DNA from: Patellaria atrata CBS 101060
Taxonomy: Eukaryota > Ascomycota > Dothideomycetes > Patellariales > Patellariaceae
Assembly (NCBI GenBank): GCA_010093705.1
Contig: MU006109.1
Span: 1-64,000 of the forward strand
DNA: 64,000 nt
Direction: 5' to 3'
Shown here piece by piece: positions 741 through 22,074 of this stretch; within the stretch, counting starts at the first letter, position 1, and each line of letters starts with the position of its first letter. Below the pieces are notes generated by a model that saw nothing but the letters and a program-made list of their open reading frames with translations, had not been told where the DNA came from and did no database searches. The position numbers were made by a program, and so were the translations under genes.

Positions 741-741
741 T

Positions 742-1761: not shown

Positions 1762-2470
1762 TATAATCGCTAGGAGAGAATACTTCTAGAGAGGCTTACT
1801 CTCTCCTTAGATTAGGAGATAGAGGCCCTTAGTAGTGTGTATAGATGGAAATTTGCCTTATCTAAAGAATTCTAACCTAATATATTAATATAATAGTCTA
1901 GTATTAAAAAACTAGTTAATAAACGAATCTAACTTTATTAAAATATTTATCTAAGTTAATTATACCCTTCTATCGATTTATATCGTAATATATCTAAAGA
2001 TTTTAACCTTAAAACACTTTTAAAAGTAAGAAAGTGTTTTAAGCCCCCGGTTTTCAGAATCTTAGCGCTAAAAAAAAGTGTTTTAGACCTTAAAACACTT
2101 AAGTATTATAGTTAGATATAATCGCTAGGAGAGAATACTTTTAGAGAGGCTTACTCTTCCCTTAGACTAGAAGATAGAGGCCCTTAATAGTGCGTATAGA
2201 TAGAAATTTACCTTATCTAAAGAATTCTAACCTAATATATTAATATAATAGTCTAGTATTAAAAAACTAACTAATAAATAAATCTAATTTTATTAGAATA
2301 TTTATTTAGGTTAATTATACCCTTTTATTAGTTTATATCGTAATATATCTAAAGATTTTAACCTTAAAACACTTTTAAAAGTAAGAAAGTATTTTAAGCC
2401 CCCAGTTTTTAGAATTTTAACGCTAAAAAAAAGTGTTTTAGACCTTAAAATATTTAAGTATTATAATTAA
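1762..2470. repeat. Tandem duplication, period 355 bp
   Basis: Positions 1762-2116 and 2117-2470 are two adjacent copies at an offset of 355 bp. They agree over nearly their whole length and differ mainly by C/T and G/A transitions, the pattern expected from RIP. Each copy contains a fold-back rich in AAAACACTT and AAGTGTTTT. No coding potential is seen. The pair lies between the two LTR-like segments. Confidence 0.75.
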
Positions 2471-2570
2471 AGAATAGATAAAATATTATAGATCTATATT
2501 CTCGTTAGAGATTTATTTTAATACGGTTTAATATACTATCTTAAGTTACCGTTTTATACTATTGTTTTCA

Positions 2571-3078
2571 CCACTATTTTGAATTAGTAAATATCCATTT
2601 ACCCGGTAGCGAGCCTCACCATCTAATAATACATCTAAACGTTTAAGTCACGTGGTACCTTTTGGTCGTTCTAGTCGTTCGGTCGTTTGGTCATTTCTCT
2701 CACGACCGAAACGTCCGCGCGTCCAAACATCCAAGTCACGTGACTCGTTGTTACTCGTTTCACCCGCAGTTCCCCCGAGTGGTCTTCCTTCCTTCCCCTC
2801 ACTCGTTGTCTACATGTTCCTACAACTTATGGCCGTAACATATAATGGAATTAAAAAAAAAAAAAATTAATATTAATAAATTAAGCTATTAGAGACTTTA
2901 TTAAGTATATAAGGGCCCTGAAAAGGGATTTATATATATAGGAAGTTACGCTATAGCTTAAAGGCTACATGCGTAATATTGTAGGTAATACAATATAATG
3001 GAATTAAAAAAAAAAAAAAACCACTATTTTAAACTAGTAAGTATCCATTTACCCGGTAGCGAGCCTCACCATCTAACA
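2571..3078. repeat. 58-bp direct duplication flanking poly-A segments
   Basis: The segment at 2571-2628 recurs at 3021-3078 with a few transitions. Between them are two copies of a TATAATGGAATT stretch followed by a long A-run, at about 2840-2865 and 2994-3020. An A-tract directly abutting the right-hand duplicate resembles the 3' end of a poly-A-tailed retroposon. A 58-bp target duplication would be long, so an unequal duplication is equally possible. Confidence 0.4.
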
Positions 3079-3416
3079 CTATCACTAGGCCTTCCATCTC
3101 ATCACTTTGGTCATCAATTGCTCCACCATCTTGAGGCTGCATTGTCTACAGCAATCAGAAATGGTTTTGCGACGACTTCTTGATTTGAATGATATGCATT
3201 TCAACTGTAAGGCAAATGATAAGATTTCTTTAAAGAAATCCTAGCACTATTTTTTAGTTCTTACTGTTGGTACTATTTTCGTTATTTTCTAAGATATAGA
3301 TTTCATACTGTTCCGTCCTTTTTGGTACACACCTGCAGTATATAACAACTAGATAGAACCACTCTTTAAGAATCAAGAATGCATCTTTTCAGGTACCGCA
3401 GCAATCCGACAACCCC
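3079..3416. other. Intergenic, nothing recognised
   Basis: AT-rich sequence between the repeat block and the 3' end of the RBR ligase gene. It probably holds that gene's 3' untranslated region. Confidence 0.4.
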
Positions 3417-4813
3417 CTAAGTCCGATGGCGGCGGCACTCTTCGCACGCTCTAATATGACAACGACGACATTGTAGTATATACTTCCAATGATGGGCGTA
3501 ACATATTTCACATCTAAAACCTCTCCGTGGCGCATCAAAGATACGTTCAAATCGTCCAGGATGATTACACTCATGAGTCTCAAGAATTTCTTGTCTCATT
3601 GCCTCAACTGTACGATTTCGTTCGTGGACGGGTAATGGTTGGTGAGCCTCGCGTTGAACTAATTCATCCACACGTTCCATCAGGTTTTGCTCATCCCATC
3701 TGTCGCAAGTGCAGTTCTTCCACTCTACGCCGCAGTGATAGCAGAATTCCGCTTTGCATAAGCAACTGGTAGAAGATTAGCGACAAACGATACAACGGTT
3801 GGAAATGAGTCATACGTCATGTGGTAACAGCCGCGGTCGAGAGAGACGAGCATCCGACATTGATAGCAACGCTGCCATCCTAAATCCCTACCAAGCTGAA
3901 GCGTGGCCTGAGTGAAAACATCATCGGGACATTCACCATCGTGAACCTGTCCTTTACACTGGATACACGTTTGTGTATAGCAATGCTGGCATTCTGCAAT
4001 CTCAACTTTATACTGTTCTGGGAGAATGAATTTCCCGCATTGGTTGTTGCTGCAATAAGTCCTGTTCCCTGAAGTAAACTCAATCTTGGCTGATGTAAAC
4101 GTTTCTTTCTCTTCATCCGACATCGATCCCTCTATCGCGTCTATAGAGATTGTTTCTTTGCAGCATCTAGGCGGAAATAGGGATTGATCTTTCGTCGACC
4201 TCATGAATAGGTCTTTCAGACAGTTTCGACAATATATATGGCCACACTGAAGACGAATGATTTCCGCGAACGGATAATCTGAAACGCAGACAACACATTG
4301 ATGCGTGGTTTGGAATTTCTGTGCTTGGCGCCTTAAGTAAGGGACGGAAGGTCCTGGATTGTTTTCCTCATCATCAGACAGATCGTAACCCACGGGAAGA
4401 AAATTAGCTCCTTCGATATGACGACCGAAGGGGTATCTAGGCACATCTGCAACATATACGGGAGGTGAGTCGATTTCCTCTTGGAACTTATCGAATTGAA
4501 GCGCAAAATGCCTGTCTTGCTGAGCTTGCGTTTCTTCGTGGATAGTGATTATCTTCCCGTCTGCATCCACGGCTGATGCAATGCTATGAGCCAATATATT
4601 ATCCTTTAGAACGCATATCTGACTCTGAATCTCGGCTTGGTATAGAGTACGAGCAACCTCGAAGTCCGAGGGATCGTCGATGGCACGTTTTCCCTTTGAT
4701 TTGTGAACACTGATTTCTACTTCCTGTAGCTCAAGAGTAAGGATAGTAATACAATCATGAAGAGATGCTGGATCTATAGGTTGAGATGTGGTGGTGGTCT
4801 CCATGCCGGCCAT
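3417..4813 (-). CDS. RBR-type E3 ubiquitin-protein ligase
   Basis: Two exons, 4813-3816 and 3765-3417, separated by a 50-bp intron (3766-3815, GTATGA..CTACCAG), give 448 aa. RING1 begins at CVVC (residues 173-176) and continues through CGHIYCRNC. An in-between-RING domain follows (Cys 254-295). RING2 opens with CYQC (316-319) and GCYHMT, where Cys329 occupies the catalytic position of RBR ligases; splicing restores the remaining RING2 cysteines. The C-terminal exon has the CNHPGRF and FRCEICYAHHW region common in fungal RBR proteins. The family accepts ubiquitin from an E2 on the RING2 cysteine. Substrates cannot be inferred. It flanks the triterpenoid cluster but has no obvious pathway role. 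The fold and splice are well supported. Confidence 0.9.
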
Positions 4814-5179
4814 TCTGGCGTTAAGGGTGAATCTTATTCAAGGTCGGGTCTCGATTCAAATCTCCAATTTGAAAAATGTATCGTGGTCGAAAAAACTGCG
4901 AATCGAGTTTAACTAAAAAGAGAGTTAATAATGTCATTCGGCATTATGGTTTACGTCGGTTGATGGTGTGTCTCCACTTTTTTTCCAACTCTTTTGCGGT
5001 ACCTTTGACCCTTTGATACTTTTTTTATTGATAATGGCAGCGTATTTGTGTGCGTTTTAAAGTCAGGATTTTACAAAGATTGCTCTAGTAATAACTGTGG
5101 AAGTAGTACTTGACTATATTTATATATTTAATGATAATATACGGTCGCAATAATTACCTAGAAAGCTAAAAAAGATAAC
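4814..5179. other. Intergenic: RBR ligase promoter and P450 3' end
   Basis: Both neighbours are on the minus strand, so this 366-bp gap should hold the RBR gene promoter and the P450 3' region. No specific site is recognised. Confidence 0.4.
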
Positions 5180-6787
5180 TTACGGAGTAAGATCTATAGG
5201 GTAACGTTTACTGATAATAAGCCGACAGTCACGATCAGGATGCGTTGGAGCAAAGACAATATGACATTTAGAAGGCATAACCAGCGGGTTTCCATATTCA
5301 TCCACATTTGTCGGTGAATATATGGCGTCCTTAGGTAGAGAGAATTCGTAGTCTTTCAGTAGGTTTGCTAGGATGGTCATCATTTCAGCCCATGCCAAGT
5401 TACGACCAATACAGCTCCGAGCGCCGTAGGAGAATGCGAAGAGGTTGCGCTTGGAAGCTTCGTTATTCAAAAATCGATCCGGAAGGAATTTCTCGGGCTT
5501 TTCCCAGGTATCTGCGCGGTAATTCATTGCTATGAGGTTGAAGGCAATATCCGTCTGCGGCGGAAGATAATGACCTTGCAGGGTGATACTCTTTGTAGAC
5601 GAAAATCTGGGCATGAATCCTGAAGTTATAGGGGAGTACCTGAGCATCTCATATAGGAATGACTCGAGGAACGGGAGACTACGGCGACATTCGGCAAACG
5701 TAACGAGGTGCTCGAGAGAAAATTGGCTGCGCACCTCATCCTGAGCCCGCTTCAAATATTCCGGATATAGCGTCAATAGGTGGAGAGACCAGGTGAGCGA
5801 GGCAGATGTTGTTTCACTGCCAGCTAGTTGCATTCCAACGCTCTCAGCTTGCACTTCGACTGATGACATCTTTATCTTTGACTCTGGGTCTTCAGCGTCT
5901 ATGAATGCTTGGAGCATGTCAGCTGGCTTTTCGACAAGGTCAGTGCCAACAAGTAAGTCCTTGCGCTTAGCCACTGAGTCTCGACTGTATCGGACAAACT
6001 CATCGTATAAACGGATCCAGCGTCGAATCAACATGGAAAAGGGGAAAACTAGTAGCAAGTTAAAGTGGATCCGGACGCCAACATAGACAGCAGTGGCAGC
6101 TATCCAGTCGACGACTGTTAGGTCATTTGTAGCTAAGGAGCCACTTTCTTTACCAATTTCCCTTCCGAACGCGAGCGCACTCATTATGTCGAAGGTGGCC
6201 AGTTGAGTATCATGACGGTAATTGATTACGATAGGCTTATCACTATTCTGTTTTATCAACTTATCCCATTTCTCTTTGATCGCTAGGATGCCGTTACGAA
6301 GGATAAGTGGTTCCATTTTTGCGATGTAATTCAGGTTAAAATATGGATTGATCTGGCGGCGCCGACGGCTGGCAAGTGAAACGTCGTTGAAGGTAACAAT
6401 ATTGGCCATAACAGGGTCATTCAAACCATGGTAAACATCGATCTTCTGGAACTCGTGAGATCCTAGTACAGCTCGAACATCTTGAGGATGACTGATGCAG
6501 ACAGTATTAGGCTTAGATACGTAGATATCGCCATATGTGCGGTAGTCAGCCAGAGCAGCTGCAAAGACTCTTGCCGGAGTCCGATTAAATATTGCCCGGA
6601 GTGATGTTATACGCGCGAAAAATGGACCCCGAATGTGACGCAACGGCGAGAAGAAGTAAGCCTTAATGATTCGCCACAATAATATGAGCAAGAATATGTA
6701 CACTAAAAGTCGTGGATGTCCAATGTCGCGGACTTTTGTGTAGGCGTCGGCAAGACGGTCCAGCCAGTCGTTACTTATGATACCCAT
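5180..6787 (-). CDS. Cytochrome P450, fusidane-cluster type (CYP5081-like)
   Basis: A single uninterrupted 535-aa reading frame. An N-terminal hydrophobic anchor (about residues 27-46) suggests membership of the ER membrane. The I-helix carries AGSETT (322-327), the K-helix EMLR (380-383), the PERF-like region is DRF near 437, and the heme loop is FSYGARSCIGR with axial Cys459. All hallmark residues are present, so the enzyme is probably active with a P450 reductase. It is clearly paralogous to the P450s at 18244 and 20488: shared blocks include GDIYV, ISHP, RRRRQI and [12 protein letters not shown]. The CYP5081 label is inferred from its partnership with a protostadienol synthase, because helvolic acid P450s belong to that family. 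Which carbon it oxidises cannot be read from sequence. Confidence 0.88.
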   Translation of the reverse strand: MGIISNDWLDRLADAYTKVRDIGHPRLLVYIFLLILLWRIIKAYFFSPLRHIRGPFFARITSLRAIFNRTPARVFAAALADYRTYGDIYVSKPNTVCISHPQDVRAVLGSHEFQKIDVYHGLNDPVMANIVTFNDVSLASRRRRQINPYFNLNYIAKMEPLILRNGILAIKEKWDKLIKQNSDKPIVINYRHDTQLATFDIMSALAFGREIGKESGSLATNDLTVVDWIAATAVYVGVRIHFNLLLVFPFSMLIRRWIRLYDEFVRYSRDSVAKRKDLLVGTDLVEKPADMLQAFIDAEDPESKIKMSSVEVQAESVGMQLAGSETTSASLTWSLHLLTLYPEYLKRAQDEVRSQFSLEHLVTFAECRRSLPFLESFLYEMLRYSPITSGFMPRFSSTKSITLQGHYLPPQTDIAFNLIAMNYRADTWEKPEKFLPDRFLNNEASKRNLFAFSYGARSCIGRNLAWAEMMTILANLLKDYEFSLPKDAIYSPTNVDEYGNPLVMPSKCHIVFAPTHPDRDCRLIISKRYPIDLTP

Positions 6788-7784
6788 CAGTGATTGTAGG
6801 TGGATTGTAGAGCAAAGGACGAAAACAAGCAGACCATATCTAGCAGTTAGGTCATAAAATCTAGTAGAACACGGTCGGTGAATATATAGCTCTGTCTAAA
6901 TTTCTACGACGAATACATATATTACCATATCTGTGCCGCGTCTAAAGCAAGTGGCATGGTTTCCTTTGCAGGAGATCGACACGATCAAGCTTATATTCGC
7001 CGCTGCAGCTAATATACCGCGAAAGTCCTTACCACCGACAGGAGGAAGTACTGTACAACCGGTTGTTGTGGGGCGTCGCCACCTGATGAAACGGCACGAA
7101 GTAACATTCTGTAGTCGGTGTAAGCTTGTACGGTCGTACAGTAGACGAGTACTGTAACAAGGGATCATCAACAGATAAGTGAAACCGTATTGTATATCAA
7201 GTTGACAACAGTGTGGGATGAGTTACGGTATGTTTGTCGCGTCCACTTGTTTCTAGTTTGTCAACGCTGGGAGCTCTATCTAATCTACCTAAGATCTCAT
7301 CTCCGGTGATTGACCGTTAACACGTAACTTCATCACCACCAGATCTCCGTTCTATAAAACACGCTCTGTAAGAGACCACCCTAATATTTCCTGGCTAACC
7401 TTGAGCTGTAGATTAGATGTCTCCTCTACTTTCTCCTTGCTCTCATCACTTCGCACATTGCGGCAGTGAAGAGCTCGATCGGCAATGGTTATGAATCTTT
7501 GGCCTTCTCAAACGGAACGTTGCATGTATAACGACAAATACTCGAGATGGTACCTCGTCGTGCGCGCACTTTGAAATGGGAACTCGAGATGGGCACCCAC
7601 CCAATGTTAGGAGTGCGTGTCAATCGTGTCGAAACAGACCTAAGAGGAATGGGATATGTCCGCAGAATATACAACAGGCATTTTTCTCACCAAAGCATGA
7701 TTTTGAAAGGTAAGTACCGTTTGAAGGCTCGATTAATCATACTTTAGATTTGAAATAGGGGAGCCTTGGTCCTTTATTCTACGC
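6788..7784. other. Intergenic between two cluster P450s
   Basis: About 1 kb between the start of one minus-strand P450 and the end of the next. It should hold the promoter of the 5180-6787 gene near its right-hand start. Short frames here have no protein character, and no remnant or site is recognised. Confidence 0.4.
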
Positions 7785-9520
7785 CTACACTTTCCGTTCG
7801 CGCTTCTTGAATAACACCTTTCCTGTTGGGTCAGTGGAAATCCCTAATCCATTTATCCTATTCTCGGGCCTCAATCCCGATTCTATCTTGACGTGGTAAT
7901 GTAATAAGATGTGGGAGAGCAGAATCTTGATCTCGTTACCGGCAAAGAATCTTCCAGGGCAAGCGTGTACGCCGTGACCAAAACTTAGCGAGTCCGGACC
8001 TGTCATGGCGAATTGATGCTTGTTTTCGGAGCCGGGGACTGCGCGCAGCTTTGCAAAGCGGAAACCGTCGAACGTTTCTGGATCATTCCAAAGTGTGCCA
8101 TCTCGCGTGACGCCCCAGGAGGGAACTGCGATGGAAGTGCCTTTTGGAAGGACGGTACCATCTGACAATGTGATATGAGACATTACTAGGCGCCTCATAG
8201 CGACTGTTTGGTAGGACTATTAGTACTGTCTCCGAAGCGAGTTATTGGGTTGTCAAACCTAGCCCTGGGGGACTCAGCCTCTGGGATTCCTTAATAAAGC
8301 TGTCGAGTTTTCGTAATTTTATCATTGATACTTTGGTCATTTTCTCTCCTGTCTCCGCTAGGACGCTCTCGATCTCTTCACACAGTGGCTCAAGATACTC
8401 TGGGTGTGCACACAGGTCGTAGAGGCAATGACACACCTTCACCATCTTATTGTTAGCCAAATATCGCACTCTGTAAGACATAATTTCTTAGCTCTTGTTG
8501 ACAGCGGTTCACATACAGTCGTACTCGTGGTATCTGAATTTCATTTAGCTTGCATTTGATTAAACAGTCACTGATTGGAGTAAATTTACGAATTGCAGCC
8601 ATGCTCAGAGTCAACTGAATATCAGCTTGCCTATCTACTGAGCTTTCTCGTGTTCCTGTCGCGTTCTCTAAGGCCCATTGAATCATATCATCTGGCCGCT
8701 TAAAGTTTGGGTCTTTCATATCCTTCACGCGTCGCTGTATGATTGGCGTCAAAAGACGCACTGCCTCAGCCCTGTGCCTTTTTATCGCTCGGGTTTCTGG
8801 GCTAAACGGAACAACAAAGGGCCGTTTCCACGCTGGGATCGATGCAAACTTCTGAGAGGCCATGAAGCTTACAATGGTGAAATTGATCGAGATTCTGATC
8901 CAATCTTCATTGCGATTCAGCGGCAAGCCAACAAACACACGACCTGATATCAATGCCACTATACGAAGAAGAGCAGGATAGAGGTAAACTGGAGTCCATT
9001 CCTCGCAGGCGCCGATGTTGCGATCAGCTGCAAATTCCATCTCATCCTGCAGTGCCTCTAGAGTTTTGCTAATGTAACGCGTTAGATCCACTTTCACGGT
9101 ACTGACCATGGTTTTACTATTATGGCCGATGCCAGTGTAACGGCCTTGAAAGAGATTGCGAATCTCCTGCTTGCTGCTCAGTTGCCATTCTGGCAGAGAT
9201 TTGATTTCATTGATGAACTTGAGCGGGATCAGGGTAAGGAGACGACCTTGGACTTGAAGCTGAAAAGGCTGATCGGGATACTGTGTTTACTTAGCGGCGG
9301 TTTACCTAATACATTGAAGAACTTTGAGTACCTTTTCGTACCCAGCCTTGACCACAGGTCGAAAGTCTGAAGACCCTTCGGGAAGAGTCATAATGGGTAG
9401 ATCCAGCAGCTTCTTTTGCCATGGAATGAAGCTTTTTCCAAGATAAAGAACAACCAGGATTGAGAATACAACCAAGATTACTGGAGAGGACATAAATGGA
9501 AAAAACATGACCCTATCCAT
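7785..9520 (-). CDS. Cytochrome P450, CYP68-like, five exons with a 17-nt microexon
   Basis: Exons 9520-9332, 9280-8590, 8533-8517, 8436-8259 and 8203-7785 splice in frame to about 497 aa; an upstream ATG at 9586 would add 22 residues. Introns are 51, 56, 80 and 55 bp with GT..AG ends. The 17-nt third exon encodes the core of the I-helix, joining MAAI to HTTSTT, which matches the HTTT-type I-helix of the CYP68 group rather than AGxDTT. The K-helix is ESQR and the heme loop FGHGVHACPGR. A membrane anchor lies near the N-terminus (VILVVFSILVVLYLG). CYP68 enzymes include gibberellin and other terpenoid oxidases. This type is unlike the three other P450s in the cluster, so it may provide a distinct oxidation. 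An intact gene is favoured over a pseudogene because all junctions keep phase. Confidence 0.82.
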
Positions 9521-9586
9521 AATTTTGATATTCTTTATAGAGATCTTGGTGATAAATTTCGAAATTGATGTCGAAGAAGAGAGCAA

Positions 9587-10309
9587 TTTGAACCCGTCTT
9601 TACTATCTTACAACTTACAAGACAAAAATATAAGTTAACTTTTCTACTCGGAACATACCTAGACGAGGTGCAAACGGTAAATACATTCATATAGTGGAAG
9701 GGGAGAGCTGATTTCTATATGCGGTAGGTTACATTTTGTTGCAGAATATTCCATTCGCCAATGCAAGAGGGACAGGGTCCCCTGGGGATGATTACGTCGG
9801 ACGGCCCTAGTTTAGAATTTCCTCCTTTCCGGAAAGCAAAAGCTCTCTAATTGCTTAGCTCTCTATCCACTTATACTTTGTGCAGGTAAGAGTTCATAAT
9901 TGACGATCTATCTCCATCAGCGGGACAAATTTGTGTACAGAGCTAGCCGAGAATTTTAAGTTACTTGCAGGGCTCATGTTAATGTTGAGGTCGTCCATTA
10001 CCCTTGAACAAACTTTTTTCGGAGCATAAATTAACAAATCAGAATTCTCGCCGTCTCCACTGTGGGCTACTGTCGAAATGCTTGAACGATGCTTGAAAGA
10101 CGGATAGATGGAGACCTTGTGGCGTGGAGTATTTGGATCGAAGCTACCGGGACGTAGATAACGGAAGCATTCAATGGAAATACGATATGAACTGTTATGA
10201 ACCGGGTAGATCTAAGCAAATTTGGCGTAAAAGCTTCTTCGGTTAAAGGTTGGAACCTATATCGAAACCGTGACCATTAGCAGCCTTCCCGCCAACAACT
10301 ACATCAAAA
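9587..10309. promoter_or_regulatory. Divergent promoter region, CYP68-like P450 / extended SDR
   Basis: A 723-bp gap between two genes that diverge from it (P450 on minus, SDR on plus). Shared upstream DNA is common for co-regulated cluster genes. I do not recognise a specific factor site. Confidence 0.4.
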
Positions 10310-11523
10310 ATGGTAGCAGCGAAGAATCAGATGTCTCAGCCAAGTAACAACGATGTTCTAGTAATTACAGGAATCAACGGTTACATAGCAAGTGTTCTCG
10401 GCTACGCACTCCTCAAGAAAGGATATCATATACGTGGTACCGTAAGAAGCTTGGAAAAGGCGAAACCGTTGCTTGAAGGAGTCTATGCCCCGTATAAAGA
10501 CCGCGTGCAGATCTATCAGGTGCCAGATATCACAGCAGATGGGGCCTTTGACGAGGTTGTAAAAGGTGAGAAGTGAATCCAGTATGGAAACTTACTGCTT
10601 GGAACAAGAAGTTTTGAGCATGTAGATTAACCATTGTTCTACCTATATGGAAGAGTTCTTGACTCACATAACATCTTGTAGGTGCCCATGGGATTTTTCA
10701 TATTGCTTCCCCTGTCGGTATGTCACTCAAAACGTATGACGAAGCCATCAAACCTGCAATTCGCGGCTCTACTGGTATCCTTTCCTCTACCTTAGCCCAC
10801 GCCGGTCCTCAGCTAAGGGCAGTCGTCGTAACCTCTTCGATCGCTTCCCTCTTTTCTGGCCGGCCAGGACCGGGAGAAATCATTACTGAAGCATCTCGAC
10901 CAAACCTCGACCTGTTAACTCTACGCGTTCGGCTCGAAGCGGGTGAGATCAAAGCACCAGTTTATGCCCTCTCAAAGATTGCCGCCGATGTCGCTGTCTG
11001 GAAGTGGTATGAAACGAAGAAGCCCCCATTTTCCTTATGCTCTATTCACCCGTCCTTGGTAATTGGGCCACCTGTAACTATCCCCTGCTCCGGTGACGCA
11101 CTCTGTGAGACGCTTCACCCACTGTGGGAGATATTTTCCGGAAAATCCTTGACGCGACTTCCGACTTTGGGTAGTGGCCTTTACGTCGACATCCGTGATG
11201 TGGTTGATATGCATTGCTTTGGATATGAGCATCCCGAAGTTGTTGATGGGCATAGGTTCATCGCTTCCGGTGGATTCGGACCGGCTCAAGCTATCGCGGA
11301 TATTTTGCACGCGGCGTATCCTATGCGAGAGGGAAAGATGCCGAAAGGGAAACCGGGGGAGGGTTATATTGGTTTTCAGGATGGAAAGGTAGGAAAGGTT
11401 CAACCGATAGAAGGTGCCGTAACAATCAGTAGCAAAAAAGCAGAGAAAATGATGGGAATTAATTGGGTTGACTTTAGGGATAGTGTAAGAGATACCGCCA
11501 AAGCTCTTGAAGTTCTCCTATAA
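10310..11523 (+). CDS. Extended short-chain dehydrogenase (dihydroflavonol reductase / 3-beta-HSD-like)
   Basis: Exons 10310-10565 and 10682-11523 (intron 10566-10681, 116 bp) give 365 aa. The NAD(P) loop is TGINGYIA (20-27), the family signature continues at GAHGIFHIASPV (86-97), and the catalytic pair is YALSK (Tyr180, Lys184) with a preceding TSS. Length and motifs fit extended SDRs of the DFR/cinnamoyl-CoA-reductase/3-beta-HSD group. Sterol C-4 decarboxylases (ERG26) share this fold. In a fusidane pathway an SDR is needed to oxidise the 3-OH during C-4 demethylation and possibly to reset C-3 stereochemistry. That role is inference; substrate cannot be read from sequence. Confidence 0.82.
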
Positions 11524-11876
11524 AACCTTTCCCTCTGCTAGCACAAGTGTTTTATTAATAGGAGTCACTTAGCATAGAGAGTTTCTTCGGTTACAAAAGA
11601 CAATTGGGTTCCAAGTTTGTGCATTATGTACAGTTCAAGTGTTCTACGACTTTGCCGCATTCGGACCATCCTTTCGTCTATTCTAGATCCCTTGAGTAGA
11701 CCTTCGCTGCCATCGAAAAACATGACTAAATCCAAGAAAGTATTTTAGAGATGAAGAACCAAATAAATGAGTTGAATATATATCACATGTCCAAGTATTT
11801 TCCATTGACATGGTATAGCTTCCATCGCATACATAAACAAGTTCTTCAGGGAAGTTGAAACCCCTTTAAGTGGTAT
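11524..11876. other. Convergent 3' intergenic region
   Basis: A 353-bp gap between the ends of the extended SDR (plus) and the acyltransferase (minus). It should contain both 3' untranslated regions and polyadenylation signals. Nothing else is seen. Confidence 0.4.
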
Positions 11877-13346
11877 TTAGTAAACAAGTTTGGTAAAAGC
11901 ACGAAGTTGGACATTTTTGAGCAATGAAGTCATGACATTTGGTCTTAAGGTAAGAAAGACATAAACATCGTTTTGCTGGGATGCTGAGGGCATGATCACC
12001 GCAACCGTGTTGGAGTATGCCATAGGAACAACGAAAGCAGGTCGACCGAATCCAAAATCAACATCGTAAAAGGAGAGCCGTGACTGATTGGAGAATGCTT
12101 GACAAACGATCATAGAGTAGAGTACATTGGCCTTACGACCAACCAAATTGATGACTCTCAGTGCCCGGCGTATGAATTGCTCTACTGTCTTCTTGTCCAC
12201 ACAATCCACAGTTTCTCTGGAGATGGACGCAACTTGCGCGAGCGATTTTAGAGTGATTGAACTGAGGAGAGCGTCTCGCGGAGCCGTAACATACAGCCCG
12301 ATTGCGCAATTGCCGGCATAATGGTCAGGCATACCGATTCGACGGCGAAAGTCGCAAGGAACAATAGCACTTGCACTTTTACTACCAGAACCAAATAACT
12401 TCTTTGCAGTTTTGGCAAGAAGACTGGCTTTTGAATCTACCTCAGCACTTACCTTCTCAGTACTTTGGGAAAATGCCATGAGGAATAGTGCGGTGATGAC
12501 GTCGTTGTCTGAAACACGAAGACCATCTGGTCGAAGTCGAAATGCCTCTTCGCGTACATCGCTGAGTGTAGATCGTGGAATACGGAACATGTGACTCTCT
12601 ATGTAATCTGGTGCAGATTGTTTGGTAGAGAATAGAACATAGAGCCTCAGCAGCAGCCGTATTAACAGTGATAGAAGGACCGAGAGCCAAGTACGAGGGT
12701 CCACCGGGTTTCTATTAGGCCTAACGTCTTTCGGGAGGTATTCGTACATGACTCTACGATCGAGGATCGGTTCCACTACCATGTTAGGCATGCCTTGTCC
12801 AAGGCTTTCACGGCAATGCTCAGCCCAACAATTCATAAACGCGACGCAACCTTTCGCATCAAAAACGCTATGCGAGATACGTACTACTATGACCACGCCG
12901 CTATTCTCAGCTAGCCGGTGGACACGTACGTGAATAAGCTTTAAGACTCCCCGATAGTCCACCTGTGAGCGTGGATCGCGAATATTCATTCCCTTCGGCC
13001 ATTGTTCGCGATGAAATTGCGCCTGTTTGATGTCTTGGAAATAGACATTCTCATTCAACTCCTCATAGACGGGCATGTTCGGGTTGTTGCGGTCGACAAC
13101 AACACTCATTGCGTTCAAACCCTCCTGCGACAAAATTCCGACAAGAATTGGAAACTTTTGCAGCGCGTGATAAAATGATGTGCTGAGAGCTTCACCGGTC
13201 ATGAATGGTGGACATTTCGCTGACGGCTCGTTCTCAAAAAAGTACGCATTGGTGATATACAAATGGCTCGGAATGATGTCCAGCGGTGAAAGCATGTATC
13301 TCTTACTACTTAGGCTGCGTAAAAAATCCTCCATGTTTTCGGACAA
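11877..13346 (-). CDS. BAHD-type O-acyltransferase
   Basis: A single 489-aa frame. The catalytic HxxxD motif is HSVFD (His159-Asp163), and the C-terminal structural DFGWG motif appears as DFGFG, followed by RPAFVVP. Both are diagnostic for CoA-dependent BAHD acyltransferases, and the length is normal for the family. There is no signal peptide, so it should be cytosolic. Known fusidane clusters use such enzymes to acetylate ring hydroxyls (C-16 acetate is common to helvolic acid and fusidic acid). The position next to the cyclase supports acylation of the triterpenoid. Acetyl donor and target carbon are inference. Only one such gene is visible here, whereas the helvolic acid cluster has two. 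Confidence 0.85.
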   Translation of the reverse strand: MSENMEDFLRSLSSKRYMLSPLDIIPSHLYITNAYFFENEPSAKCPPFMTGEALSTSFYHALQKFPILVGILSQEGLNAMSVVVDRNNPNMPVYEELNENVYFQDIKQAQFHREQWPKGMNIRDPRSQVDYRGVLKLIHVRVHRLAENSGVVIVVRISHSVFDAKGCVAFMNCWAEHCRESLGQGMPNMVVEPILDRRVMYEYLPKDVRPNRNPVDPRTWLSVLLSLLIRLLLRLYVLFSTKQSAPDYIESHMFRIPRSTLSDVREEAFRLRPDGLRVSDNDVITALFLMAFSQSTEKVSAEVDSKASLLAKTAKKLFGSGSKSASAIVPCDFRRRIGMPDHYAGNCAIGLYVTAPRDALLSSITLKSLAQVASISRETVDCVDKKTVEQFIRRALRVINLVGRKANVLYSMIVCQAFSNQSRLSFYDVDFGFGRPAFVVPMAYSNTVAVIMPSASQQNDVYVFLTLRPNVMTSLLKNVQLRAFTKLVY

Positions 13347-13967
13347 TCTGAAAATGAAATGAGTGAGAAATTGGAGAACTGAAGTCGGCTATTCAGAGAT
13401 ACTGTAAGTGGTCTAAGTATTTCATATTTCCGATCATGTGATACGTATGGTAAGGAACGCATTAAACGTCGAGGTCGAGCATGGCCAAAAGTTAAGGCTA
13501 CAGCTCCATTAGCGGGATGTCAAGGTTTGGAAGCTCGGTCAGAATAAATAACAGTTGTACTAGTACTGTTTAGCTGACAAGGTATTTCGGGCGATATGAT
13601 TGTGTAATAGCTTACTAACTGGAAGGGAAAGTTTCGCGTAGCACCTTCTACAGCCTAGGTATCACAAAGCTAACACATTGGATGGAACCGCAATGTAGTT
13701 GATTGCCCACGGGATATGTGGGACCGCTTTCATCGAATAGATTTATTCTGGAACGATGATTGCAATGTATACAAATCTACGCGAATTCCAAACTCTGACT
13801 GCTTTAGATGTGTATGTATCCCATGAAAACTACACTGTTGAAAGCGTCGGCAACTTCGACAGCGACAACACAACCGAAGACAGTAGGAATGAAAGAATGA
13901 CCCGCAGGTTATAAGAAAGGAATGCAGATCGGTTAGAGAACTCTGGGTATAGAAAGCCATTTTTGGC
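13347..13967. other. Intergenic: acyltransferase promoter / cyclase 3' end
   Basis: A 621-bp gap between two minus-strand cluster genes. It should hold the acyltransferase promoter on its left side and the cyclase 3' region on its right. The short frame overlapping the cyclase 3' end is a shadow. No site is recognised. Confidence 0.4.
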
Positions 13968-16199
13968 TCAGTAGAGAAGCTGCTCGTTACCATACAGCTT
14001 TGCGAAACGCCCAAGAGCCGAAAGGGTAAAGTGAAACTTGTAATTAGGATATCGCATGCCGCCTGGAGGAGCAAACACTCCCTCAAGTGCACCAGGTAAC
14101 CAATCACCAGTTTGCTGCTGCTGTTCCATGAGGTACGCTATACCACGCTTTATGGCCATATGGTTGGTGCAGTTTGCCGCCATCAGACCGATGACGGCAT
14201 AAGAGGTATTTGTGACTTGACTACCAGCTGGATCTTGCACATATTGCTTCGTCCTTGCACTTTCGAGGGACTCCCCCCAACCGCCATCCGGGTTTTGATG
14301 ACTGAGTAGAAAGTTGCAGGCACTTTTGCACGCAACAGAGATTCTCTCAGAAACGTCAACACTCGCCAGTCCTTGTAGTGCAAACATTGTAGCATATGTG
14401 AAGCAGACACCCCAACTTGCAAACCAGCCGCCATTCGGGTACTGCGCGCTTAAAAGGTAGTTTACGCAGCGGTCAATACAGTTTTGAATATCATTAGTGC
14501 GATAGTCGGGGTACGCCTTGGCAAATGTCGTCAGACTTGTCATGACCGAACCGGTACACTCGGGATATAGTTGGTCTGTCATGACGTTCTCATATAATTC
14601 CGTAATATTCATGAGCTCTAGGCATAGGGGTCCACGAATCGGCTCATACGCGGAATATCCTCCGCCATTATTTTCCATCTTCAAGACAAGGTCAACCGCT
14701 TGTTTGAGCCGCTCGTCCGAGATCAGTTTGGGAACAAGTTGTGCTTGCTGAAGAAGAACAACAACCTTCACTGCTTCAGCTGTAGTGTCGGAGACGACGT
14801 ATGACTGATCACGCGTACTGAAAGGCCAGCCGCCCTTAGTAGCTTGCCTATAAACCCGGTTTAGACCGAGGGGGTTCTCGCGGATCTGCGTGTTGTCGAT
14901 GAATTCAAGTGCAGTTCGTAGAATTTCGCTGTTTTCTGGGTGAATCGCTATTTCTGAATCGATTGTGGCCTGGAGTGTGAATACGGTATCCCAAAGTGAT
15001 GTACCATTAGTACCTGATGCTGCCAGACCTTCGCGGCACATCCACATTGGATCAATGATACGCTCGCGCATGCCGCGAACCCAATGGCTGTCAGGACCGT
15101 GGGCGTGAAACATGGCAAGCATGTTAGATGCGAAGCTCACAGGTGCAATACACAAGTAGTTCGTATTGCGTACCTCGGCTTCGATCTGGAACAGAGCTTC
15201 CTCAAGTGCCCATCGACGCAGAAAAGGTAGCCTCAATCGTTCATGTATCTGAAGCATAGTTGCAACAGTACGCTGGGTAAATGTAATTGGTGCGAGGCGA
15301 TCAAATTTGCTGATATTGTTCCGTTGAGCAGGCCAGTCAATATGTTCGTAGGGTCGGTCGTAAAGTTCCCGGCGTAAGTCTCTTGTCAGATCGTTAAGTT
15401 GCATTACGAATTTATGACCATAGAAATAGCTCATGCTGATGAAAACGTTACGAGTGTGAACCCACCATTGACCTGGACTTAATGGTAACATGCTTGGTGT
15501 AAGCAACAGCTCTGGAGGTAGTGGAGTCATACCATCCCACTCGTATACTCCAAGAACGCATAGCCAGAATTTCCCCCATGTAGGAGTTGTCAGTATACCG
15601 CCCATTCTGGTCAGAGCACTGCGTGCCTTAGTCAGTACTGAATGCTTGGGTGACACTCCTAATATGCGTAGTGTGATGTAATTCATGACTGTACCAAAAA
15701 CTGTAGATGGACTTTGAATGAATAAGCCCCAGCCACCATCTTCATTAGAGACGTTCATCAGGTAACGACACATCTCTCTTCTCATGTGAGGTTCGAATGA
15801 ATTTCCCATGATAAAGTTGACAATGACAATTGCGCTCGTTACAAAGAGAGGACCGTCGTCGTTACATCCCCAATGACCATCTTGTGCCTGTAGACGTTTG
15901 AAGAATTCCCATCCGTTCTCAATAGCCTGCAATGGTCGTTGGGCCCGCGGAAGCGTAGGCATTTCAAAGGGTAAACCAAGCCAATATTTCTCGAGGAAGC
16001 TCTGAGGCTCTTCCGAGGCCTCGTCATCAGACAAATAGGTCCACATATGACGTCCATTCTCAACCCTGAGCCGCCAACGCGTAAGATCAGTTTTATACTC
16101 TCTCGCCTCCGTGGTATCAGAGAAATCGGCTCGGCCAATCGTGGAACCGTCACCTTTTATCATGGTCGTGATGTGATGACTCCAGTCGTTGAGATGCAA
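13968..16199 (-). CDS. Oxidosqualene cyclase, probable protostadienol synthase
   Basis: A single 743-aa frame, the normal length for fungal oxidosqualene cyclases. QW-type repeats include DGHWG, DGGWG, NGGWF and DGGWG. The active-site His region is WWVHTR (His248), and the channel region is NVFISMSYFYG. The protonation motif, usually DCTAE, is DTTAE (471-475) with catalytic Asp471; the second cysteine that contacts this Asp is kept in ECTG (Cys548). Near the C-terminus lies APPGGMR (710-716). In A. fumigatus protostadienol synthase exactly this block replaces the NKSCAIS block of lanosterol synthase, and swapping it redirects the product. The predicted reaction is (3S)-oxidosqualene to protosta-17(20)Z,24-dien-3-beta-ol, the committed fusidane step, at ER membranes. 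It is not the housekeeping ERG7, since it sits among P450s, SDRs and an acyltransferase. Confidence 0.92.
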   Translation of the reverse strand: MHLNDWSHHITTMIKGDGSTIGRADFSDTTEAREYKTDLTRWRLRVENGRHMWTYLSDDEASEEPQSFLEKYWLGLPFEMPTLPRAQRPLQAIENGWEFFKRLQAQDGHWGCNDDGPLFVTSAIVIVNFIMGNSFEPHMRREMCRYLMNVSNEDGGWGLFIQSPSTVFGTVMNYITLRILGVSPKHSVLTKARSALTRMGGILTTPTWGKFWLCVLGVYEWDGMTPLPPELLLTPSMLPLSPGQWWVHTRNVFISMSYFYGHKFVMQLNDLTRDLRRELYDRPYEHIDWPAQRNNISKFDRLAPITFTQRTVATMLQIHERLRLPFLRRWALEEALFQIEAEVRNTNYLCIAPVSFASNMLAMFHAHGPDSHWVRGMRERIIDPMWMCREGLAASGTNGTSLWDTVFTLQATIDSEIAIHPENSEILRTALEFIDNTQIRENPLGLNRVYRQATKGGWPFSTRDQSYVVSDTTAEAVKVVVLLQQAQLVPKLISDERLKQAVDLVLKMENNGGGYSAYEPIRGPLCLELMNITELYENVMTDQLYPECTGSVMTSLTTFAKAYPDYRTNDIQNCIDRCVNYLLSAQYPNGGWFASWGVCFTYATMFALQGLASVDVSERISVACKSACNFLLSHQNPDGGWGESLESARTKQYVQDPAGSQVTNTSYAVIGLMAANCTNHMAIKRGIAYLMEQQQQTGDWLPGALEGVFAPPGGMRYPNYKFHFTLSALGRFAKLYGNEQLLY

Positions 16200-16660
16200 C
16201 AGAGGTAAAGGCGGCGTAGAAGAATCTACTAAATTGATATTACCGTGAGTATTAAGATGAAGGATGCGAGTAGTGATATCTTTGTACAGATAGAGGGTTA
16301 GAGGAGGATTATAGTACTGAAATGGACGACTCTAAACTTGAAAAGTAGCTATCCAGTTTAGGAATCCACCTACCCTAACATCGAATGAGATATATCATTT
16401 AGTCATCTAATGAATGAGAGCAAATGTATTTGATAGTACTAATACCACGTTTTACGCTCGGGCACGGCGCATCAGATAGAGCCGAATGAAGCATGTCAGC
16501 CTACTGATACATGGTATATCCGCCGCTATATATGTGTCCTCGAATTTCTCGCGAACCCTCGTCATACTTTTGCTATTTGATTTTATCTTTTCCGTATCGG
16601 CTTTCCCCGCCCTTATTTTCCCACTTCGTACTTTTCAAGCTCATCCGAGTATAACGTATT
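16200..16660. promoter_or_regulatory. Divergent promoter region, cyclase / classical SDR
   Basis: A 461-bp intergenic region from which the cyclase (minus) and the SDR (plus) are transcribed apart. Short pyrimidine-rich tracts lie close to the SDR start. The arrangement suggests co-regulation of the first pathway step with a tailoring enzyme. No specific binding motif is claimed. Confidence 0.45.
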
Positions 16661-17440
16661 ATGCTCTCTTCCGTCAAGACTGCCATCATAACGGGCTCTG
16701 CTCAGGGCGTTGGATTTTGTATAGCTAAGGATTTAGCTAAGCGTGGATACAAGGTGGTCATCAGCGACATTGACACAGAGAAGGGATCGCAAGCTGCCAC
16801 AGAGGTCAACAAAAACCATGGTGATGGAACGGCGGTCTTCATTCCTTGCGATCTCACGCGCACCGAGGACATTGACAATTTGTTGAACAGTACGGTTGAG
16901 AAATTAGGCGGTTTTTCGGTATTGGTTAACAACGCTGGATTTTTACGGGCACCATTCTTAGCGATCTCTCCCAAGGATATTCAGGATACGATTGGAATTA
17001 ATCTTACTGCACCCATATACGCGACACAACAATGCATCAAATTGTGGAACGAGAATCCGGAACAGAATGGGCAGGTGGTCACAGTTACATCGTCATCTTC
17101 GTTTAAGACGTATGCTAGTATCTCAGCATACGGTGCTGCAAAAGCTGGTGCTGCACAGTTTACGTTCGCATCGCGCGCATTTGGACCCAGAATTCGCATC
17201 AACGCAGTTGCTCCCACCGCTATAGCGACCAATTTCGAGAACAACAAGATGCGTGTTCAAACGGACAAGGTGGGAGCGGGTTACACTCCTGAACCTGAAA
17301 TGCGGGCCATGGGTCTTAACAGGTTACAACCCGAGGATGTTGCCAACGGAGTTGTTCGGTGCATTGAGGATGATTCGATGTATGGCCAGGTCCTTTATCT
17401 TGATGCAATTGAGGGAATGAAGATCCACAGCAGCTTTTAG
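16661..17440 (+). CDS. Classical short-chain dehydrogenase/reductase
   Basis: A single 259-aa frame of normal classical SDR length. The cofactor loop is TGSAQGVG (11-18), followed by NNAG (90-93), a serine-rich catalytic stretch TSSSSF (143-148) and YGAAK (Tyr157, Lys161). There is no signal peptide or membrane segment, so a cytosolic oxidoreductase is expected. It shares a divergent promoter region with the cyclase. Fusidane pathways need an SDR for C-3 oxidation linked to loss of a C-4 methyl and, for 3-alpha-hydroxy products, a ketoreductase. Either job is possible; which of the two SDRs does which cannot be decided from sequence. Confidence 0.85.
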   Translation: MLSSVKTAIITGSAQGVGFCIAKDLAKRGYKVVISDIDTEKGSQAATEVNKNHGDGTAVFIPCDLTRTEDIDNLLNSTVEKLGGFSVLVNNAGFLRAPFLAISPKDIQDTIGINLTAPIYATQQCIKLWNENPEQNGQVVTVTSSSSFKTYASISAYGAAKAGAAQFTFASRAFGPRIRINAVAPTAIATNFENNKMRVQTDKVGAGYTPEPEMRAMGLNRLQPEDVANGVVRCIEDDSMYGQVLYLDAIEGMKIHSSF

Positions 17441-18243
17441 TCCAGGATGTGGACACATATGGAGACACATATGGAGACACAGGATTGAGACATGATGGAA
17501 CGCAATCTTCGCTTTTCAGTGAGGGGTCGTATGTCATAAAACCAGAAAAAGAAGGTGTCATCCGTCTGGCAGAGTGAAGTGGCAAGTTCTGATATGAATT
17601 TTCGATCGCTAATAGTAGGTAGAAAGTAGATTAACTTGAAGATTTTGGAAAATGGATGTTGAGGTTGTGATAAGATTCTACTATGCTTTCCCCCATTGTG
17701 ACTAGTTCCAATCTCTTCTTTTTCAGCCGTGTACATATCAACCGACAAAATGCACCGTTGCTCTCAAGGTAACATAACTAGAGCTATTTCAATGCAATGC
17801 AGGCTATCTTACTCCCCTCGCTTTCCCTTGACTATTGCAGCTTGATTTCATTACCTATAGCAACTCTTTGCAAGGGTAAAGAGGCGAATTCAAGGTTGCA
17901 ATATCCGGTTAAGAAGACAGTGCTGTGAGATGTTCTCAAATACTCTCTAATCAATGAGATGAGATTCATAGGCATTGATATCATATAGTCAGCGGTACAA
18001 ATACATAGAATGTAAGTAAACGGTATGGTCATATTGGTCAGTTATTAGAACACACAACGATGACTGCGGCCTTGCGAACTCTTGATCCGACACAGAAGTT
18101 TCCTCACAACAATACAATTACGTGTGAACCCCCACAAGCGCAGTGATTGAGACGAGAGCCTAACTATAGAAAGAAGAATATATCGTAAGTTTTCCTATTT
18201 GCAATTCCGTGGATCTCAGCCAACCTTTACAGCGCAATCCACA
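17441..18243. other. Intergenic: SDR 3' end and P450 promoter
   Basis: An 803-bp gap between two plus-strand cluster genes. Right after the SDR stop there is a three-copy micro-repeat of an ATGGAGACACA-like unit (about 17446-17482). The right side should hold the P450 promoter. Nothing else is recognised. Confidence 0.45.
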
Positions 18244-19824
18244 ATGGTGGCCCTTGATGTCGACTGGTTTAACATCTTGACCGAAACTTATTCCTCTCTC
18301 AGAGACTTCGGCATCGCACGCCTTCTCACGATAATCATTGGAGTGTTGTTGGCTTTCCGCCTCGTTCATGCCTTCTTTCTCTCACCATTACGCAATGTCC
18401 CTGGGCCACTAGTTGCTCGTCTGACAGCGAAGCGCGGTGATTTGGACAACTTCTCTGGCAGAGTGGCCCAGAATGTACAGGCCGATTATGAGCGATACGG
18501 TGATATCTATGTGTACAAACCAAATGCTGTATGCATCAGTCACCCTGATGATATACGGGCTGTGTTGGGGTCACAATCGCAAGAGTTTCGGAAGGCCAAG
18601 TTTTTTGATATCTTTGACGATGGTGGTACCCCCAACATTGTGTCTCTGAGGGAACCGGAACTTGTCAGTCGTCGACGTCGTCAAATTGGTCCATTCTTCA
18701 ATTATAGCTATCTAGACAAAATGGAAAACATCATCTTGAGCAGAGGATACGAAGCCATGAAGGCGAAGTGGGATAAACTAGTCCACGACAATGACGGTCA
18801 ACCAACAGAGGTCAATTATCGTATCGACACTCAGCTAGTCACGTTTGATATCATGAGTGCCCTAGCCTTCGGTCGCGAGTTCAATTCCATAGCCAAAGGC
18901 AGTTCATCCATTACCAAGTGGACAGGAACTATAATGTCTCTTCTGGATTCCCCTTTCGTTCTCGGCCTATTATCACTACTTCCCTTCTCGCTCGTTATGC
19001 GCCCTTGGAAATATATGTATCGCGATCTTGCTGTATACAGCAAAGAGTCCATAGCCCAACGGAAAGCTGTCCTTGCTAGTAGGAGCGCAAAAAAACCTGT
19101 CGACATATTACAAGCCTTTATTGACGCAGAAGATCCTGAGTCCAAAGCGAAGATGACTCCACCGGAAGTACAAGCGGAAAGCATAATGATGATGCTCGCG
19201 GGAAGTGAAACCACTTCGTCTGCTATCATGTGGTCGTTCCATTTGCTACTACTATATCCTAAAATCCTTCAACGCGCGGTTGCCGAGGTTCGTAGTGTGT
19301 TCCCTCTAGAGCATCTTATCACTTACAAGGAAGTGCGTGATCACTTGCCTTATGTCGAAGCTTGTGTTTATGAAGCACTACGTCAATCACCTACCACGGC
19401 TGGATTGACACCACGTATCTCTTACAGTAGGGGTATATCTATACAAGGCCACTATATTCCACCAAACACTGAAATCTACGTTAACCTACGGTCTCCCAAC
19501 ATGCATAATAGTCTTTGGGAGGATCCGAATCGATTCAATCCGGAACGTTTTCTCAACGATACTGCTAAGCATGCGTTGTTTACATTCTCATACGGTCCTC
19601 GCATCTGCATCGGCCGAAATCTTGCCTGGGTCGAGATGCTAACAATTATTGCCAACACCCTCAAGGATTACGACATAGCATTACCTGAAAATAGCCTATT
19701 TAATCCAGAAAATGTTGATGCTCAAGGTCTTCCGAAGCTATTACCTTGTCGGTGTTTCATTGCATCTTTCCCAGAAAATCCAGACCGCGACTGTCGTCTA
19801 TTGATTACCAAGCGTACCGAATGA
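18244..19824 (+). CDS. Cytochrome P450, fusidane-cluster type (CYP5081-like)
   Basis: An intronless gene. I chose the ATG at 18244 (MVALDVDW, 526 aa) because it aligns with the starts of its paralogues; an in-frame ATG at 18199 would add 15 residues. A membrane anchor covers about residues 23-46. The I-helix is AGSETT (319-324), the K-helix EALR (377-380), the PERF region is PERF (433-436), and the heme loop FSYGPRICIGR has axial Cys455. It shares long blocks with the P450s at 5180-6787 and 20488-22074 ([28 protein letters not shown]). All key residues are present, so it should be active. It is a cluster tailoring oxidase of unknown regiochemistry. Confidence 0.88.
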   Translation: MVALDVDWFNILTETYSSLRDFGIARLLTIIIGVLLAFRLVHAFFLSPLRNVPGPLVARLTAKRGDLDNFSGRVAQNVQADYERYGDIYVYKPNAVCISHPDDIRAVLGSQSQEFRKAKFFDIFDDGGTPNIVSLREPELVSRRRRQIGPFFNYSYLDKMENIILSRGYEAMKAKWDKLVHDNDGQPTEVNYRIDTQLVTFDIMSALAFGREFNSIAKGSSSITKWTGTIMSLLDSPFVLGLLSLLPFSLVMRPWKYMYRDLAVYSKESIAQRKAVLASRSAKKPVDILQAFIDAEDPESKAKMTPPEVQAESIMMMLAGSETTSSAIMWSFHLLLLYPKILQRAVAEVRSVFPLEHLITYKEVRDHLPYVEACVYEALRQSPTTAGLTPRISYSRGISIQGHYIPPNTEIYVNLRSPNMHNSLWEDPNRFNPERFLNDTAKHALFTFSYGPRICIGRNLAWVEMLTIIANTLKDYDIALPENSLFNPENVDAQGLPKLLPCRCFIASFPENPDRDCRLLITKRTE

Positions 19825-20487
19825 GTTCCAAGTAAACTTATCTCCAACCTTTGCAGATTCATGAACAACTGACAGTTCCGAAAGTGCACCTTAAGTAATG
19901 TTAGGAGGATATAAGGTAGAGTTGAATATCATGATCTGATAGTGAGCTAGATTTTGGTGTCAAGGGTTAGAATACTTCAGTGTTCGTTATAAGAACCTTC
20001 ATCTTTAGTCGCATTGAGCTCATAATTTCGTTTTGAATAATATAATACCGCTATAGGTAATAACGCAATACCGAGGCGTTCTGACGCTGAATAAAACAGG
20101 GCGCATATGCAGGTCAAAGTCTAAGCTTGATATGCAACAACTTCCACTCTACGAGGCTGGTACAACATTTCCTTATGTAGAAATCCCCTCGAGTATCTAC
20201 CATTATATGGTGTAGAGAGTTTTTGTAATATATCTAAGCTATCCCTTTGTTTTCTTTCTTTCATTCTAAATGGTATGTAATTTTCCCCCAAACCTGGTAG
20301 TCTATGTTCTTCCATCAATTCCTTATAAGATTTCCACAACTCTATATCGACGCAATCCAATAAGTGGTAAAATGAAAAATATACTTCCGATTGTGTGATA
20401 AACTTTCAGCATTCAAGTTCCAAATTCTATTAATATCTTTATCTTTCAACTTCGTTGATCTCCAGAAAGAATTCATTATTCCAAAAA
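19825..20487. other. Intergenic between two paralogous P450s
   Basis: A 663-bp gap between head-to-tail P450 genes. It holds the 3' region of the first and the promoter of the second. A short minus-strand frame (20121-20360) has no recognisable character and is left out. Confidence 0.4.
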
Positions 20488-22074
20488 ATGTCGACCCCAA
20501 GCATCAATCTAGACATTTATTTTACCAAGGTCCACCATCTTATTCAAGAGTTTGGGTACATCAAATTTTTCATATCCTTGGTTTGCCTGCGGTTGATTTG
20601 GTGTATCACATACGAACTATTACTTTCTCCGTTGCGTAATATACCAGGCTCGCTTCTCGCACGTCTCTCCGCAAAACATTCGATCCTCAAACGTGTATTT
20701 GGTAATGGACCGAAATTAGTTCAGGCCGACTACGAAGCATATGGTGACATATATGTTCATAAGCCTAACGGCGTGAGCATCAGCGACCCAAAGGATATAC
20801 GAGCGATACTCGGCTCGCAAGAGTTTAGGAAGACGGCAATCTATAAGACGCTCGACATTCTCGAGAGACCTAGCGTCTTTACAAATACGGATCCCTTGCA
20901 GGCCAGTCGAAGGCGCCGACAGATAAATCCGTATCTGAATCATGGGTACTTGGGTCGGATGGAACCAACGATAATCCGTTACAGTATCATTGCAATCAAA
21001 GCGAAATGGGAAAGACTTCTCCAACAGAGTAGTAGTGAATCTGTAATTATCAACTACCGAAACGATACGCAGTACGCTACTTTTGATACCATTGGTGCAC
21101 TAGCATTTGGAAGAGAATTTAATTCACTCGTCAACGACGATCCCTTAATTATAAGGTGGATCGAGGCTACTGGTCTTTATCTAGGCCTAACTAAGAATTT
21201 CTCTATACTTAATATTTACCCCTTCTCGCTGCTAATTTCTCGGCACAAGAAGCTGTTTGAAGAATTTATCAACTATAGTAAAGAGTCGGTAAATCAACGT
21301 AAGGAGGCACTTGCTCGTAAGGGTAGTGGTGAAGTTCAAGAAGAGAAACCCATCGACTTATTGCAAGCTTTTATCGATGCTGAAGACCCAGAGTCAAAAA
21401 TTAAGATGAATCATCACGAGGTCCAGACGGAAAGTATAGCCATGCAGCTGGCGGGCAGCGAGTCAACGTCCTTTGTGACATCCTGGGTTATCCACCTACT
21501 TACCCTCTATCCACAGCATTTGAACCTAGCGGTTCAAGAGGCCCGTCAATTCCCATCTGACCAGCTTATTTGCTTTCGTCACCGAACGGAGCTACCTTAT
21601 TTGGAAGCCTGCATCTACGAGACATTACGCTATTCACCAATCACATCGGGATTCATGCCCAGGGTCTCCCACAGCAAAGGGATTAATATTCAGGGATATT
21701 ACATCCCAAGCGGTGTGGAGGTCGCGATAAATTTGATCGGTGTCCACGCAAATCCTAAGATATGGAGATCTCCACACCTCTTCGACCCAAGCCGTTTTCT
21801 TGAGGATGAAGAAGCTAAAAGGAACGTTTTTGCTTTCTCTTACGGGCACCGCAACTGTATCGGCCGGAATCTTGCCTGGGTCGAGATGCTGATTATCATT
21901 GCTAACATCCTCAAAGACTTTGATATCAGTCTCCCAGAGGATAGTGTTTACGGGCCACATAACGTAGACGAGCTTGGACGTCCTAGGATCATGGCCACGA
22001 GAAGCTCACTATTCACGACACCCAAGTACCCGGAACGCGACTGTCGTTTAGTTATTAAAAAACGCGCAGTGTAG
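20488..22074 (+). CDS. Cytochrome P450, fusidane-cluster type (CYP5081-like)
   Basis: An intronless gene of 528 aa from ATG 20488 (MSTPSINL); an upstream in-frame ATG at 20455 is possible. A hydrophobic anchor is followed by SPLRNIPG. The I-helix is AGSEST rather than AGSETT, with the second threonine kept. The K-helix is ETLR, the PERF-like region PSRF, and the heme loop [11 protein letters not shown]. It is a close paralogue of the genes at 5180-6787 and 18244-19824 and lies head-to-tail with the latter, as expected from tandem duplication followed by divergence. It marks the right end of the recognisable cluster. Its role as a protostane oxidase is inferred from context. Confidence 0.87.

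Follow-up and report, generated by a model that had tools for sequence, protein, structure and literature searches.

We analysed a stretch of 64,000 nucleotides from Patellaria atrata CBS 101060 (the window; positions 1 to 64 kb of the 371,011-base contig MU006109.1, here C21, in a 28.3 Mb genome on 46 contigs) and found at 5180-22074 an eight-gene cluster that we read, with a probability of about 0.72, as a biosynthetic cluster of the fusidic acid type. Its most likely product is fusidic acid or a close analogue, possibly with a different hydroxylation position. We favour this reading because the composition of the cluster equals that of the fus cluster, namely six core enzyme classes plus one cytochrome P450 (P450) and one short-chain dehydrogenase/reductase (SDR). 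It is supported by an oxidosqualene cyclase with the motif APPGGMR, by three sister P450s without a fourth, and by one BAHD acyltransferase gene, which counts for fus because that pathway needs one.

In known fusidane pathways, a shared precursor is made by a cyclase, HelB1, HelB2, HelB4, HelD2 and HelC, and is then converted to fusidic acid by FusB1 and FusC1 or to cephalosporin P1 by CepC2, CepB4 and CepD2 (PMC8902786). The addition of fusC1 and fusB1 to a six-gene Aspergillus oryzae strain yielded fusidic acid (PMC12299000). A preliminary description of this DNA had counted one cyclase, four P450s, two SDRs and one BAHD enzyme at the locus, and Pfam matches and motifs confirmed all eight:

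5180..6787, minus strand: P450 a, 535 amino acids (PF00067, E = 1.2e-59; heme motif FSYGARSCIG, AGSETT, EMLR).
7785..9520, minus strand: P450 that we take to be CYP68-like, 497 amino acids, five exons (PF00067, E = 4.1e-45 for the spliced model; AAIHTT, ESQR, FGHGVHACPG).
9331-9281, 8589-8534, 8516-8437 and 8258-8204, minus strand: introns of the CYP68-like P450 in the splice model.
10310..11523, plus strand, intron 10566-10681: extended SDR resembling dihydroflavonol reductase (DFR) and GRE2, 365 amino acids (Epimerase, E = 7e-9; TGINGYI, YALSK).
11877..13334, minus strand: BAHD acyltransferase, 485 amino acids (PF02458, E = 1e-23; HSVFD, DFGFG).
13968..16163, minus strand: oxidosqualene cyclase, 731 amino acids (SQHop cyclase C and N domains, PF13243, E = 5.9e-53, and PF13249, E = 5.7e-49).
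16661..17440, plus strand: classical SDR, 259 amino acids (adh_short, E = 5e-44; TGSAQGVG, YGAAK).
18244..19824, plus strand: P450 c, 526 amino acids (PF00067, E = 3.9e-67; heme motif FSYGPRICIG).
20488..22074, plus strand: P450 d, 528 amino acids (PF00067, E = 1.6e-68; heme motif; I-helix AGSEST, which the I-helix pattern used for the motif check missed).

Each model runs from a methionine to a stop codon with no internal stops and keeps the expected catalytic motifs; together, stops included, the eight account for 11,802 of the 16,895 bases of the cluster. Six are single-exon models, and the introns of the other two, the CYP68-like gene and the two-exon DFR-like gene, were placed by eye using splice signals. 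All of these introns are GT..AG, one acceptor being the rarer AAG, and the least certain site is the acceptor of the third CYP68-like intron, where a nearby alternative would add three residues. Among the matches listed in NCBIfam (for the classical SDR, the best 25 of 217), none exceeded its cut-off for any tailoring enzyme; the queries for these two genes were single exons. Because our genome-wide profile searches treat exons separately, the counts that they return are lower bounds, and the assembly may itself be incomplete.

The window cyclase scored 575 bits against NCBIfam TIGR01787 (cut-off 322.7), and a loose pattern picks out five QW-type repeats in it. At residues 698-704 it carries APPGGMR, and the compared region reads GVFAPPGGMRYPNYKF. 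One other oxidosqualene cyclase was found in the genome, on contig C3; it has NKS at this place, in a frame that runs ...GVFNKS, then an apparent intron, then MISYPNYKF, and by its sequence it looks like a lanosterol synthase. An alignment of the two enzymes over 626 positions gives 244 identities (39%), and their active-site motifs read DTTAE in the window and DCTSE on C3. APPGGMR is also carried by the counterpart enzyme of Aspergillus fumigatus. We propose that the window cyclase is of the protostadienol type and separate from lanosterol synthase, an assignment made by motif only. The preliminary description is supported in calling the locus a protostane/fusidane cluster.

P450s a, c and d share 49-51% pairwise identity, with 50-51% between a and each of the others. 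A genome search with P450 d returned a and c at 553 and 512 bits and the next match by score at 98 bits (29% over residues 40-482), with shorter exon-length matches of 26 to 44% elsewhere, and because of this score gap we treat the three as a P450 family of their own. The same search found no fourth sister. HelB3 is a member of this family, and we propose that a, c and d, taken together, are the counterparts of HelB1, HelB2 and HelB4. On C21, PF00067 matches were confined to the cluster (5 of 95 rows, with the best 92 of 102 genome candidates scored), and the fourth P450 there, at 7785..9520, differs in type from the sisters. Its CYP68-like label is a tentative assumption, taken from the preliminary description and from the motifs AAIHTT and FGHGxHACPG. 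Fusidic acid bears hydroxyls at 3alpha and 11alpha, C-11 being the site of FusB1 action. C-11 is a plausible site for the CYP68-like enzyme by analogy, a guess with support rather than a result, and 11alpha-hydroxylation of steroids is described for CYP68L1 and CYP68L8 (PMC11673057).

By class, we propose the classical SDR as the counterpart of HelC/FusC2. The relatives of the DFR-like SDR in the PDB are the ketoreductase 9phg, aldehyde reductase II 1ujm, GRE2 4pvc and dihydroflavonol reductases, and because these nearest solved structures are carbonyl reductases, the enzyme suits a role as 3-ketoreductase. Within the genome, the best paralogue of this SDR lies on C8, with 40% and 50% identity over two different stretches. 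In yeast, FusC1 reduced the triterpenoid ketone GA-TR, which was employed as a C3 keto substrate (PMC12234687), and we propose the DFR-like SDR as a putative 3-ketoreductase of the FusC1 type. A kept 3-hydroxyl together with an additional oxidation, as the preliminary description had suggested, is likely.

The reactions that we assign to the six core classes are carried over by analogy from the hel and fus literature, and each gene is presumed to perform the step of its namesake. The cyclase would convert (3S)-2,3-oxidosqualene to protosta-17(20)Z,24-dien-3beta-ol, and the three sister P450s would turn the 4beta-methyl group into a carboxyl, introduce a hydroxyl at C-16beta and convert C-21 into the acid, with the allocation of these steps among the sisters equally presumptive. 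The BAHD enzyme would acetylate the 16-hydroxyl. Oxidation at C-3 by the HelC-like SDR would bring about loss of the 4beta-carboxyl, giving a 29-nor fusidane 3-ketone, which the DFR-like SDR may reduce to the alcohol, and the CYP68-like P450 may hydroxylate C-11. For these two finishing steps we take the CYP68-like gene as the inferred counterpart of FusB1 and the DFR-like gene as that of FusC1.

One BAHD gene was found in the 28.3 Mb, the cluster's own, which accounts for two of the three PF02458 rows; the third is a weak match within a 5,139-residue frame. We propose that the cluster's BAHD gene encodes a HelD2-type C-16 O-acetyltransferase. The preliminary description saw neither a second acyltransferase nor a delta-1-dehydrogenase, and the genome-wide profile searches with PF02458 and PF00890 likewise found none elsewhere on C21. 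The PF00890 search gave 13 rows (the best 16 of 34 first-look candidates scored), comprising three places with long matches (C16, C15 and C18), two second pieces (C16 and C15) and eight short stretches. NCBIfam classed the C16 gene as succinate dehydrogenase above cut-off, the C15 gene as flavocytochrome c-like below cut-off, and the C18 gene as 3-ketosteroid delta-1-dehydrogenase-like, also below cut-off because only its longer piece was submitted. The C18 relative (C18:6705-8543, minus strand) lies about 6.7 kb from a contig end, and its longer piece matches 3-oxosteroid 1-dehydrogenase best in the PDB (E = 5e-83). An in-frame TAG interrupts it at a place where no plausible intron was seen by eye. 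Among frames of at least 110 residues in the first 20 kb of C18, read by eye with no Pfam scan, no fusidane genes were recognised. A Zn2Cys6-like regulator was recognised within the same 20 kb.

These counts bear directly on two other known products. Helvolic acid and cephalosporin P1 are both disfavoured because each needs two BAHD genes and one was found, and on this genome search, itself a lower bound, both were set aside. A helvolic acid cluster of which only part lies here, with its remaining genes on another contig, would fit the end of C21 about 5 kb away and the position of the C18 dehydrogenase relative near its own contig end. Such a split is nevertheless barely credible: HelD1 and HelD2 would both be needed (PMC5696383), the C18 relative is broken by its TAG, the fourth sister P450 is missing from the genome search, and the CYP68-like and DFR-like genes would be left without a role. 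No sequence linking the C18 end to the C21 end was found (the best 40 of 230 candidates for the left 3.1 kb scored), and among the matches listed the sole C18 match to the left 3.1 kb of the window is at the opposite end of C18. The preliminary description's view that the product is probably a fusidane other than helvolic acid is supported. A cephalosporin P1-type cluster, which likewise combines the six core classes with a P450 and an SDR (PMC11719821), is very improbable, since it needs the second acyltransferase CepD2, for which the genome search offered no candidate within its lower bound, and its three tailoring genes stand in a second cluster in Acremonium chrysogenum (PMC11719821).

A more serious alternative, though still unlikely, is that the same core makes a fusidane other than fusidic acid, with the CYP68-like P450, the DFR-like SDR or both not orthologous to FusB1 and FusC1 and acting elsewhere, for example in C-7 or C-12 oxidation or in formation of the other C-3 epimer. 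CYP68J5 is tied to both 7alpha and 11alpha oxidation (PMC11673057). Among the fusidanes found in nature, C-6, C-7, C-11 and C-12 all occur as oxygenated positions, and one analogue is 7beta-hydroxylated (PMC3901436). The gene classes are nevertheless identical to those of fus, and no gene is added or missing that would demand another product. In a related form that we also hold doubtful, the six-gene core would be joined by a CYP68-type hydroxylase and a GRE2/DFR-type ketoreductase of which neither is the FusB1 or FusC1 orthologue, and the product would be either fusidic acid, reached through convergent recruitment, or an isomer with its oxidation on a different carbon.

Several points weigh against the fusidic acid-type assignment. 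The likeness to fus is one of enzyme class, and the accessible portions of the literature searched gave no sequence family for FusB1 (P450) or FusC1 (SDR). CYP68J5 failed to restore 11alpha-hydroxylation in Aspergillus nidulans, and its overexpression was linked to 7alpha and 7,11alpha oxidation (PMC11673057); given these results, C-11 is not a necessary site of action for a CYP68-like enzyme. As even the cluster's own gene scored just 46 bits, the BAHD count is a minimum, and a divergent or intron-split second gene could have been missed. Because the contig ends about 5 kb to the left, a further cluster gene could be cut off.

The preliminary description spoke of a non-standard gene set and a possible new antibiotic-class metabolite; neither is supported, since six core genes, one P450 and one SDR are the published fus composition and match, by class, the set of a known compound. 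As grounds for abandoning the idea it had further named the case that a known compound already had the very same genes; by enzyme class, fus is such a set. The most economical and most likely interpretation is a further pathway of the fusidic acid type, not a new kind of antibiotic. Fusidic acid is clinically used, and its reported producers are scattered among fungi (PMC3901436). The compact set of eight genes on a single contig is an additional source of fusidane enzymes, its candidate C-11 hydroxylase and 3-ketoreductase could serve the making of analogues, and the cluster is a data point for a shared fusidane core joined with different finishing enzymes.

The left end of the window (1-3100) consists of AT-rich dispersed repeats that have numerous matches across the genome; several of these fall no more than a few kb from the end of a contig, and others are contig-internal. 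Such a pattern fits a subtelomeric location without proving it, and no TTAGGG or CCCTAA was present in the first 3 kb. A RING/IBR-type zinc finger gene at 3417-4837, the one left open reading frame scanned with Pfam, borders the left edge of the cluster. To the right, the Pfam scan covered 17 of the 28 open reading frames of at least 150 residues, leaving out the remaining 11 and shorter ones; 10 of the 17 had a match and 7 had none. The matches include a weak Beta_helix, GH43, HET, bestrophin, peptidase M16, RING, GCV_T, DUF4112, polyprenyl synthetase and ApbA, and no P450, acyltransferase or FAD-type dehydrogenase was among the 17. The polyprenyl synthetase (61555-62346; PF00348, E = 1.7e-54) lies some 40 kb to the right of the eight genes. 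No regulator specific to the pathway was recognised in the cluster. Three places in the genome carry the EF-G/EF2 domain IV family (a lower bound), a count that gives no sign of an additional EF-G/EF2 copy pointing to target-based self-resistance. Because a conserved 5.8S rRNA stretch had no exact match in the assembly, the ribosomal DNA may not be assembled.

Compared with known systems, the cluster shares with the seven-gene cluster of Cordyceps farinosa a protostadienol synthase, there with the related motif ACPGGMR, three P450s, an acyltransferase and an SDR; that cluster has a ketosteroid-dehydrogenase gene and is without the extra P450 and SDR found here (PMC8227516). The helvolic acid cluster comprises nine genes, including two acyltransferases (HelD1, HelD2), four P450s and HelE (PMC5696383). 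With hel of Aspergillus fumigatus, the Patellaria cluster has in common a protostadienol-type cyclase, several P450s, a HelC-type SDR and a BAHD acyltransferase. It differs in having three sister P450s against the HelB set of four and in its additional CYP68-like P450 and DFR-like SDR, and neither a HelD1-type second acyltransferase nor an uninterrupted HelE-type dehydrogenase was found in the genome. The cep genes of Acremonium chrysogenum cover the same six core classes with an SDR and a P450, but they are divided between two clusters of six and three genes, with the three tailoring genes in the second (PMC11719821), whereas a single cluster is present here and no second acyltransferase (CepD2) was found. 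With fus of Acremonium fusidioides, which has no delta-1-dehydrogenase either, the cluster shares the six core classes, one acyltransferase, one further P450 and one further SDR.

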